From Thiohalospira halophila DSM 15071 (GTDB lineage Bacteria > Pseudomonadota > Gammaproteobacteria > Thiohalospirales > Thiohalospiraceae): 64,000 nucleotides of DNA. A program made the translations under genes and the position numbers. Shown here in pieces: positions 16,415 through 19,796 of the stretch (positions within the stretch are counted from its first letter, which is position 1; each line of letters starts with the position of its first letter). Under the pieces are notes generated by a model. The model was not told the origin of the DNA and searched no databases. It worked only from the letters and a program-made list of their open reading frames with translations. Location of the stretch: contig NZ_FOMJ01000001.1 of the NCBI RefSeq assembly GCF_900112605.1, positions 334,577 to 398,576 of the forward strand, in the 5' to 3' direction.

Positions 16415-16795
16415 ATGGCCCGAGACCCGCGGCCGCGCAATCTCGACCTGAGCACCGTCCATTTTCCGGTCCCGGCGGTGCTCTCCATCCTCCACCGCGG
16501 TAGTGGTCTGTTGCTGGTGCTGGCCATCCCGTGGCTGGCGTGGCTGCTGGAGCGCTCGGTGAGCGGCCCGGCCGGCTTCCGGGCCGTGGTCGACCACCTG
16601 GACAGCGCCCCGGCGCGGGTGGTGCTGGTCCTGCTGGCCTGGGCCCTGGCCCACCACCTCTTCGCCGGGATCCGTTATCTCCTCATCGATGTCGATATCG
16701 GGGTCGACCGTCCCCGGGCCCGCGCCAGCGCCTGGCTGGTGAATGCGGCCGGGGTCGCGGTGGGGCTGCTGGCCGTGGCGAGGTGGTGGCTGTGA
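16415..16795 (+). CDS. sdhC: Succinate dehydrogenase cytochrome b556 subunit
   Basis: A 126-aa membrane anchor with three hydrophobic helices. S-I-L-H-R-G-S-G at residues 24-31 is the quinone-site motif of SdhC, and A-H-H-L-F-A-G-I-R-Y at about 79-88 provides the haem b His. It anchors SdhAB to the inner membrane and passes electrons to ubiquinone. ATG 16415 has GGGAGAG/AGGA upstream. It is the first gene of sdhCDAB-sdhE-ygfX, and its TGA overlaps the GTG of sdhD. Confidence 0.95.
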   Translation: MARDPRPRNLDLSTVHFPVPAVLSILHRGSGLLLVLAIPWLAWLLERSVSGPAGFRAVVDHLDSAPARVVLVLLAWALAHHLFAGIRYLLIDVDIGVDRPRARASAWLVNAAGVAVGLLAVARWWL

Positions 16796-17142
16796 AGGCC
16801 GATCACGCGGGCCTGCGCGCCTGGATGCTCCAGCGCCTCTCGGCGGTCTACCTCATCGGCTTCGTGGCGCTGTTCGGCGGGCGGCTGCTCTGGGCGCCGC
16901 CAGCGGATCACGCCGAGTGGGCGGGCTGGCTGGCGCGTCCGGGGGTGGCCACCGCCATCACCCTGGCCTGGCTGGCCCTGGCGGTACACGCCTGGATCGG
17001 CGTGCGCGACATCACCATGGACTACCTCCATTTCACGGCCGCCCGATTCATTCTGCTGGTGGCGGTGGCATTCGGCCTGCTCTGGCTGGGCGTGCACCTG
17101 GCGGCCATCCTCGCCTCCATCCCCGCGGGAGGGACCCCATGA
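16792..17142 (+). CDS. sdhD: Succinate dehydrogenase membrane anchor subunit
   Basis: A 116-aa protein with three transmembrane helices. W-M-L-Q-R-L-S-A-V at the start and H-A-W-I-G-V-R-D-I-T-M-D-Y at about 67-79 are the SdhD signature, including the haem-ligand His. The start is a GTG overlapping the sdhC stop (GTGA). Together with SdhC it forms the ubiquinone-binding anchor. The stop overlaps the sdhA ATG. Confidence 0.94.
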   Translation: MKADHAGLRAWMLQRLSAVYLIGFVALFGGRLLWAPPADHAEWAGWLARPGVATAITLAWLALAVHAWIGVRDITMDYLHFTAARFILLVAVAFGLLWLGVHLAAILASIPAGGTP

Positions 17143-18902
17143 GCATCACCCGACGCCGCTTCGACACCCTGGTCATCGGCGCCGGCGGGGGCGGCCTGCG
17201 CGCCGCGCTGCAGCTGGCCGAGGCCGATGCCAACGTCGCCGTGGTCTCCAAGGTCTTCCCCACCCGCTCCCACACCGTGGCGGCCCAGGGCGGGGTGAAT
17301 GCGGCCCTGGCCAACGTCCTCCCGGACAACTGGCACTGGCACATGTACGACACCGTCAAGGGTAGCGACTTCCTGGGCGACCAGGACGCCATCGAGTACA
17401 TGTGCCGCGCCGCCTCCCACCTGGTGGTGGAGCTGGAGCATGCCGGCGTCCCCTTCTCGCGGCTGGACGACGGCCGGATCTACCAGCGCGCCTTCGGCGG
17501 CCAGAGCCAGGACTTCGGCGGGGCGCAGGCGGCGCGGACCTGCGCGGCAGCGGATCGCACCGGCCACGCCATCCTCCACACCCTCTACCAGCAGAACCTC
17601 CGGGCCAAGACCCACTTCTTCGACGAATACTTCGCCGTGGACCTCCTGCGGGATGCCGAGGGGGTCATCGTCGGCGCCCTGGCCCTGGAGATCGAGACCG
17701 GCGAGCCGGTGGTCATCGAGGCCAAGACCACCCTGCTGGCCACCGGTGGGGCGGGCCAGATCTTCCGCACCAACACCAACGCCCACATCAACACCGGTGA
17801 CGGCCTGGCCATGGCCCTGCGCGCCGGGATCCCGCTGGAGGACATGGAGTTCTTCCAGTTCCACCCCACCGGGATCGCCGGCCGCGGCATGCTCATCACC
17901 GAGGGGGCGCGCGGCGAGGGCGGTTACCTGGTAAACCGTGAGGGCGAGCGCTTCATGGAGCGCTACGCCCCGCATGCCAGGGACCTGGCCAGCCGCGACG
18001 TGGTCTCCCGCGCCACCGCCACCGAGGTGCGCGAGGGCCGCGGCTGCGGCCGTGCCGGTGACCACGTCCACCTGCGCATCGACCACCTGGGCGAGGCGAC
18101 GGTGGCCGAGCGGTTGCCGGGCATTCGCAGCACCTGCCAGACCTTCCTGGGCATCGACCCGGCCTTCGAACCCATCCCCGTCTTTCCCACCGCCCACTAC
18201 ACCATGGGCGGCATCCCCACCGACCGCTACGGCCAGGTGGTGGTCCCGGTGGGCGAGGGGGGCGAGGAGGCCATCCCCGGCCTCTATGCCGCCGGCGAGT
18301 GCGCCTGCGTCTCCGTCCACGGCGCCAACCGCCTGGGCGGCAACTCCCTGCTGGACATCGTCGTCTTCGGCCGGGCGGCGGCCAACCACATCCGTGAATA
18401 CCTGCAGGAGAACCGCTACCACCGCCCGCTGGAAGAGTCCGAGGTGGAGCAGGCCCTGGCGCGGCTGCAGCGCTGGGATCGGACCGGCGAGGGGGAGAGC
18501 GTGCCCGCCCTGCGCGCCGAGCTGCAGACGGTCATGGAGCGCCACTGTGGCGTCTTCCGCAACCAGGACGTCCTGGACGAGGGGGTGGTCGCCGTCCGCG
18601 AGCTGCGTCGGCGGCTGGAGGATGCCGTTATCGGCGACACCGGCTCGGTCTTCAATACCGCCCGGATCGAGGCCCTGGAGCTGGAGAACCTCATGGATGT
18701 CGCCCTGGCCACGGTGGTCTCCGCCGCCGGCCGCACCGAGAGCCGGGGCGCCCACAGCCGCACCGATCACCCCGAACGGGACGATGAGCACTGGCTGCGC
18801 CACAGCCTCTTTTCCCTGGAGGGGGAGGCGCTGGACTACAAGCCGGTGCGGACGCGGCCGCTGTCGGTGGAGAGCTTCCCGCCCCGGGCGCGCGTCTACT
18901 AG
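17139..18902 (+). CDS. sdhA: Succinate dehydrogenase flavoprotein subunit
   Basis: A 587-aa flavoprotein. The FAD dinucleotide-binding motif G-A-G-G-G-G-L-R-A-A-L is at about 12-22, and the covalent-FAD region R-S-H-T-V-A-A-Q-G-G-V-N-A-A at about 45-58 with the attachment His. The active-site F-H-P-T-G-I and the C-terminal G-A-N-R-L-G-G-N-S-L-L-D motif are intact. It oxidises succinate to fumarate in the TCA cycle. The ATG overlaps the sdhD stop. Unusually, a 195-bp gap with a palindromic element separates it from sdhB. Confidence 0.97.
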   Translation: MSITRRRFDTLVIGAGGGGLRAALQLAEADANVAVVSKVFPTRSHTVAAQGGVNAALANVLPDNWHWHMYDTVKGSDFLGDQDAIEYMCRAASHLVVELEHAGVPFSRLDDGRIYQRAFGGQSQDFGGAQAARTCAAADRTGHAILHTLYQQNLRAKTHFFDEYFAVDLLRDAEGVIVGALALEIETGEPVVIEAKTTLLATGGAGQIFRTNTNAHINTGDGLAMALRAGIPLEDMEFFQFHPTGIAGRGMLITEGARGEGGYLVNREGERFMERYAPHARDLASRDVVSRATATEVREGRGCGRAGDHVHLRIDHLGEATVAERLPGIRSTCQTFLGIDPAFEPIPVFPTAHYTMGGIPTDRYGQVVVPVGEGGEEAIPGLYAAGECACVSVHGANRLGGNSLLDIVVFGRAAANHIREYLQENRYHRPLEESEVEQALARLQRWDRTGEGESVPALRAELQTVMERHCGVFRNQDVLDEGVVAVRELRRRLEDAVIGDTGSVFNTARIEALELENLMDVALATVVSAAGRTESRGAHSRTDHPERDDEHWLRHSLFSLEGEALDYKPVRTRPLSVESFPPRARVY

Positions 18903-18948
18903 GCAGGTGCGTCATGACCAGAGGCTCAGCGGAAACGGAAAAGGCCAA

Positions 18949-19061
18949 GGCGGTGATGGTGAGGCTGGGGGCTCAGGGTGTCGCGCGGCATGGATGCCGC
19001 GCGCAAGCCTACAGGGAGGTATTCACGGCGTCCCTGAGCCCCCAGCCTCGCCATCACCGCC
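18949..19061. repeat. 113-bp palindromic repeat element between sdhA and sdhB
   Basis: Outer arms at 18949-18978 and 19032-19061 are 30-bp inverted repeats with a single mismatch (T/C at the twelfth base, a G-U wobble in RNA). The 53-bp core holds a second hairpin, 10-bp arms at 18982-18991 and 18994-19003 around a GG loop, followed by a segment beginning CAAGCCTACAGG. I recall cores with GGCATGGATGCC followed by this kind of segment as multicopy intergenic repeats in gammaproteobacteria, but cannot check it here. It carries no protein-coding gene and looks like a non-autonomous REP- or MITE-like insert in the operon. Confidence 0.8.
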
Positions 19062-19097
19062 CCAGATGGAGATCGCCCGGCCGGCGACCCGGAGGCA

Positions 19098-19796
19098 ATG
19101 ACGATGCGTCTTACACTCTACCGCTACGACCCGGAACGGGACTCGAAGCCGCGCACCGAGACCGTGGAGGTGCCCACGGAGCCCGGGATGATGCTCCGGG
19201 ACGCCCTGCTGCGCTACAAGGAGCAGGACCCGACCTTCACCTTCCGCCACTCCTGCGGCGAGGGCGTCTGCGGCTCCGACGCCGTGAATATCAACGGCAC
19301 CAACGGCCTCGCCTGCATCACCCCGGTGGCCGACCTGCGCGAGCCGGTGACCGTCCGACCCCTGCCGGGGATGCCGGTGATCCGGGATCTCGTGGTGGAC
19401 ATGGAGCCCTTCTACGCCCAGTACCGCGCCGTGGAGCCCTGGCTCACCGTCCACAACCCGGAACCGGAGGTGGAATACCGCCAGTCCCCCGAGGAGCGGG
19501 CGGAACTGGACGGCCTCTACGAGTGCATCCTGTGCGGTGCCTGCTCCACCGCCTGTCCCTCCTTCTGGTGGAACCCCGAATCCTTCCGCGGGCCGGCGGC
19601 GCTGCTCCAGGCCTGGCGCTTTATCAATGACAGCCGTGACCAGGCGGCGGAGCAGCGTCTTGCCGCGCTGGACGGACCCTATCGGCTCTTCCGGTGCCAC
19701 ACCATCATGAACTGCGTGGAGGTCTGCCCCAAGGGACTGAACCCCACGGCCGCCATCGGCCACATCAAGCAGCGCATGGTGAAGGAGAACCTCTGA
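19098..19796 (+). CDS. sdhB: Succinate dehydrogenase iron-sulfur subunit
   Basis: A 232-aa ferredoxin-type subunit. All three clusters are visible: 2Fe-2S (C-G-E-G-V-C-G-S-D ... C at about 54-75), 4Fe-4S (C-I-L-C-G-A-C-S-T-A-C-P, about 143-154) and 3Fe-4S (C-H-T-I-M-N-C-V-E-V-C-P-K, about 201-213). It relays electrons from SdhA FAD to quinone. CCGGAGGCA precedes the ATG at 19098. It lies 36 bp after the palindromic element, so it keeps its own ribosome-binding site. Confidence 0.96.
   Translation: MTMRLTLYRYDPERDSKPRTETVEVPTEPGMMLRDALLRYKEQDPTFTFRHSCGEGVCGSDAVNINGTNGLACITPVADLREPVTVRPLPGMPVIRDLVVDMEPFYAQYRAVEPWLTVHNPEPEVEYRQSPEERAELDGLYECILCGACSTACPSFWWNPESFRGPAALLQAWRFINDSRDQAAEQRLAALDGPYRLFRCHTIMNCVEVCPKGLNPTAAIGHIKQRMVKENL

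Follow-up and report, generated by a model that had tools for sequence, protein, structure and literature searches.

A dispersed, probably mobile hairpin element with a conserved tip and a private stem between sdhA and sdhB of Thiohalospira halophila

Why do 195 bp separate sdhA from sdhB in Thiohalospira halophila? In the window, the whole 64-kb stretch of DNA analysed here, sdhC (16415-16795), sdhD (16783-17142) and sdhA (17139-18902, plus strand) are overlapping open reading frames. The first-pass annotation had taken the sdh genes to overlap otherwise, which holds for these three, while sdhB (19098-19796, plus strand) and the gene after it abut at 19796/19797 without overlap. The gap extends from the sdhA stop at 18902 to the sdhB start at 19098, the identities of both genes being assigned by Pfam, and sdhB is preceded by a GGAGG of its own at about 19087, 3' of an element that occupies much of the gap. 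Presence of this element is lineage-specific: comparison of the sdhA-sdhB spacing across nine relatives of the same family gave gaps of 4-47 bp with no element, and on this sample the sdhA-sdhB copy is found in the T. halophila lineage only.

The element is a palindrome of 113 bases. Its G-rich left arm (18949-18978, plus strand) and C-rich right arm (19032-19061, plus strand) are 30 nt each, 97% complementary with one mismatch, and flank a 53-nt core (18979-19031, plus strand) that contains an inner hairpin. Arms, inner hairpin and spacing, like the 195-bp gap, are as first annotated, and the element contains no gene of its own. The left arm sequence is private to the sdh copy; the core is common to other copies in the genome and to many Gammaproteobacteria. 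The predicted fold of the region reaches -117.4 kcal/mol (z = -6.5), with none of 200 shuffles equally good, and the hairpin is the sole one in the window with a stem score of at least 16. The left flank (18903-18948, plus strand) contains CGGAAAAGGCC, a motif also found left of other copies. Within 25 nt left of the stem, CGGAA and CCGAA occur in 11 and 8 of 41 copies in this genome, about one each being expected, and the corresponding signal of the sdh copy lies at 18930-18946. The true end of the element may be outside the stem.

In a DNA search of the T. halophila genome a dozen copies stood out clearly; they have about 52 nt of the middle in common and flanking arms that are different yet complementary. 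A covariance model comprising the core and five flanking pairs located 44 copies across the 2.69-Mb genome, all at E 1.1e-5 or better. What recurs is the core together with a few adjoining base pairs; the remainder of the 30-bp arm differs in each copy. Both arms and core had been suggested as queries; the core is indeed multicopy and the arms are not common to copies, so that a search by arms alone would miss the family. The expected multicopy intergenic repeat is thus present, with related copies across Gammaproteobacteria, and 44 copies together with relatives lacking the element are not the single shared copy that would have marked a regulatory hairpin. By gene calls the copies are intergenic, many directly after stop codons, and most have stems of 25-40 bp with 0-3 mismatches. 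In about 129 kb sampled from this genome, all 12 hairpins with a stem score of at least 16 bear the core, indicating that the element does not invade existing palindromes; with no empty long hairpin in that sample, pre-existing palindromes were rejected as insertion targets.

Some arrangements of copies are worth recording. Six in the same orientation lie within 17 kb (G000:C3:17333-34532, L371). Elements in close pairs are almost always divergent, minus then plus, with unrelated spacers, in the T. halophila genome (C1:762813-763045 and C1:516766-517551) and in a second genome, G222 (C36, C10, C1, C31, C27, C3, C15); the unrelated spacers of the G222 pairs led to rejection of a composite element. 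No orientation bias by replication arm is visible among the listed copies of genome G230, the origin position being assumed.

The conserved core, about 52 nt, is a T-shaped tip consisting of a three-way junction and two GGA-bearing hairpin loops. In the sdh copy, hairpin P2 (18979-19005, plus strand) has an 8-bp stem and two outer pairs, and its loop reads TGGA where most copies have GGGA; hairpin P3 (19007-19029, plus strand) has stems of the GCC/GGC and TAC/GTA type and an AGGGAN loop. Both stems covary over 77 distinct cores, in which the GGA motifs of the two loops, like several bases of the junction, are near-invariant. CTAC, GTAG on the other strand, occurs in 43 of 89 cores, its bases belonging to the covarying P3 stem. 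A subset of cores has in common about 42 additional nt, including a small hairpin, in the P3 loop (L265:5214-5317, L287, L270, L288 and L268 in genome G283; L251 and L253 in G292). At L143, L205:5150, L212:13780 and L220:2625, in genus g190, the P3 side of the core encloses another hairpin repeat, CCAGCACCTAAAT...ATTTAGGTGCTGG.

The long stem follows the opposite rule. At 6-16, 16-24 and 24-30 nt from the core, an arm pairs with its own partner at 95, 90 and 85% of positions, and with the partner of another copy at 36, 46 and 37%; pairing ends about 30 bp out. Three copies (L041, L042, L043) have one identical core sequence and unrelated arms with zero mismatches, and identity within core subfamilies is 90-95% for the cores against 39-59% for the left arms. 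Within one subfamily, pair differences on both sides outnumber those on one side about threefold (604 versus 208). The arms are not arbitrary: left arms are G-rich in 43 of the 44 T. halophila copies, a certain length is preferred, most of these copies retain G at 16-17 and 22-23 nt from the core, and similarity in register exceeds that of shuffles. On this reading the stem is part of the element and has diverged very far while remaining paired, for which old age and selection for pairing could be an alternative account. Arms are private in T. halophila and in G283; in genus g190 they are common within families, with fixed mismatches, and private stems are therefore not universal.

Which strand folds? 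Mutation without strand preference should leave G.T and A.C mismatches in equal number. Across all sampled copies, the non-Watson-Crick pairs of the long stem, read on the core's strand, comprise 84 G.T, 19 A.C and 39 others. In T. halophila and G283 the G.T:A.C ratio is 70:12, and G.T exceeds A.C in 41 copies against 5 with the reverse (p = 4e-8), although relatedness among the copies means that mismatch counts are not fully independent and p-values serve as guides. The ratio is 36:5 for copies with both neighbouring genes antisense to the core and 20:2 for copies with both sense. An equally strong bias in antisense contexts argues for selection that preserves folding of the core's own strand and does not act through a host messenger. 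To judge from these sequence counts, selection seems to act on the folded plus strand of the core rather than on host mRNA, and single-stranded DNA and RNA made by the element would both fit.

The covariance model matched 45 of 276 sampled gammaproteobacterial genomes, about one in six, most of the sample being drafts. Many draft contigs start or end inside an element (C9, C16, C48, C56 and C45 of G283; C57 of G292), so that drafts probably contain more copies than were counted. Genomes of genus g190 carry at least 74-147 copies, and two species of one genus carry 132 (G222) and 3. Genus g217 offers a closer view, since its members G283 (51 copies) and G292 (17) have flanks about 90-97% identical. 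At one pair of sites (L263/L243) element, arms and orientation are all in common; at another (L268/L241) the arms are conserved and the core is inverted; at two more (L105/L227, L240/L225) the element occupies the same site with the core inverted and different arms. Hypermutation of the arms at a fixed locus finds no support, as L263 and L243 have the same arms in flanks that differ by 5-8%. Other G292 sites corresponding to G283 elements hold REPINs or other repeats and neither G283 arm. One G283 element (L267:5548-5661, contig C39) is lodged in the loop of a GTAG REPIN, GTAGGAGCGGCC..., and the G292 counterpart (L362, contig C58) is the REPIN without the element; at two G292 sites (L330, L346) a palindromic repeat of about 200 nt, GGAGCCTGTCGGACTTAGG...CTAAGTCCGACAGGCTCC, stands where G283 has the hairpin element. 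In the genera of G230, G222 and G283, intergenic sites of sister species are occupied by other repeats, and no clean empty site was found for an element with private arms. Presence and absence at the compared sites is compatible with gain and loss alike. Copy number together with presence/absence suggests that the element is probably mobile; the genomes compared revealed neither a transposition event nor an enzyme for it, and flanking direct repeats were not in excess over swapped flanks, giving no sign of a target-site duplication. Searches of phages and IMG/VR gave no match and plasmids none of note, so no vehicle was seen.

Several other accounts of the hairpin have to be weighed. A strong GC-rich stem could belong to an intrinsic terminator or a chance palindrome, but no T-run follows the stem on the plus (sdh) strand, where the right arm gives way to CCAGATGGAG, and the loop is a structured 53 nt; with a multicopy core and a fold far beyond shuffles, which refute the chance palindrome, this explanation is very improbable. 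Could the hairpin be kept for its effects in cis on host transcripts, by 3' end protection, RNase III processing or adjustment of the SdhA:SdhB ratio, as has been proposed for REPs? The predicted RNA fold is very stable, RNA stems tolerate G.T pairs, and the frequent position after stop codons would suit such a role. However, sense and antisense placements relative to genes are about equal (14:10 in T. halophila, 13:19 in G283), the G.T bias is the same in antisense contexts, and the relatives do without the element between sdhA and sdhB, which together make a cis-acting role unlikely. The protection or truncation of the sdh transcript proposed in the first-pass annotation is likewise disfavoured, given the missing U-tract, the balanced placement and a strand signal independent of gene direction. 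Most likely the element is a tolerated insertion, because sdhB retains a ribosome-binding site of its own; effects on mRNA processing at sdh, if any, are most likely secondary.

Movement of a GTAG REP/REPIN-type element by a RAYT (Y1) transposase has some appeal, as single-strand-specific hairpins without target-site duplication recall the logic of IS200/IS605, and a Y1 protein is present in 23 of the 24 copy-bearing genomes tested. The exception, however, is G222 with its 132 copies; GTAG is confined to about half of the cores and lies within a covarying stem; and T. halophila has a single Y1 gene (L031:3334-4416, G000:C4), encoding 360 aa with an IS200-like Y1 transposase domain and a DnaA C-terminal DNA-binding domain, with no element adjoining it. 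This explanation, already weakened, is doubtful. Equally doubtful is insertion of the core alone, the target flank being copied in inverted form to give the second arm, by fold-back or template-switch synthesis. It would account for the identical cores with unrelated, perfectly matched arms at L041-L043, and L311 (G292:C18, about 2530-2795) presents a 101-bp near-perfect palindrome around the core that includes the inverted end of an ispA-like gene. That palindrome is possibly a real inverted duplication and possibly an assembly chimaera, and for the latter reason was set aside as evidence. Against target-derived arms stand the preferred length of the arms, their conserved positions at set distances from the core, and the sister-species sites that lack the element and have neither arm.

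On balance, the sdh copy is likely to be one copy of a dispersed, probably mobile, non-autonomous hairpin element that would be recognised by its tip and spread via its folded plus strand. A putative trans-acting factor would recognise the T-shaped tip on that strand, whether as single-stranded DNA or as RNA expressed by the element, and new copies would arise through the folded strand. Apart from pairing, length and a few positions, the sequence of the stem would be of little consequence, and template switching between the arms could repair the stem and flip the core. The fuller proposal, of a mobile hairpin spreading as one folded strand, its stem rewritten in sequence but not in pairing as copies are made, with nearly every copy thus private, by an enzyme outside the known REP transposases, is tentative and the less probable of the two. 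What emerges is a widespread hairpin family with an unusual rule, in which the tip is conserved and the stem is private but well paired. The strand-specific mismatch bias offers a way, from sequence alone, to tell selection on a folded single strand from selection on a host message, and both the enzyme behind the copying of such hairpins and the way in which stems diverge without losing their pairing become testable questions.

How does the element relate to known repeats? It has the character of dispersed bacterial palindromic repeats in general, being intergenic and multicopy (44 in T. halophila, 132 in G222, up to at least 147 per genome in g190). GTAG REPs and REPINs are likewise short palindromes scattered between genes in many copies, frequently close to gene ends and without target-site duplication, and G-T pairs have been noted in their stems (PMC3733652, PMC2817692, PMC3116915). 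However, REPs are 20-40 nt with 5-13-bp stems, a GTAG tag and a sequence conserved within the family (PMC3733652, PMC2817692, PMC3116915), the tag being the defining trait of most of them (PMC3733652), whereas this element is about 115 nt with a three-way-junction tip and a stem of about 30 bp private to each copy. No such tag marks the foot of the hairpin, and no element-flanked RAYT gene was found in G222 or T. halophila. The MITE-like R0, R2 and R6 of Pseudomonas fluorescens are similar in size (about 100 bp), in inverted repeats of 24-43 bp and in lineage-specific copy number (PMC2718517), but MITEs have conserved ends and target-site duplications, and here the ends are variable: terminal inverted repeats common to copies were absent from T. 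halophila and G283 and in g190 occurred within families. The known effects of template switching at inverted repeats are homogenised arms and an inverted spacer (PMC8604942, PMC8794818), as at L268/L241; such switching is a mutational process and by itself leaves multicopy cores with unrelated arms unexplained.

Rfam 15 has no family at the gathering threshold at the element, where sub-threshold microRNA look-alikes are the only hits, and a sequence-word literature search returned unrelated primers only. No description of the element was found in the literature as far as family descriptions go, and it may already be listed under a different name. Apparently the family is an unnamed variety of dispersed palindromic repeats, set apart from published families by their descriptions. 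In integron attC sites, structure is conserved over sequence and one folded strand matters, with conserved outer boxes and a variable tip. The element likewise seems to depend on structure and on one strand, yet it keeps the tip and varies the stem.
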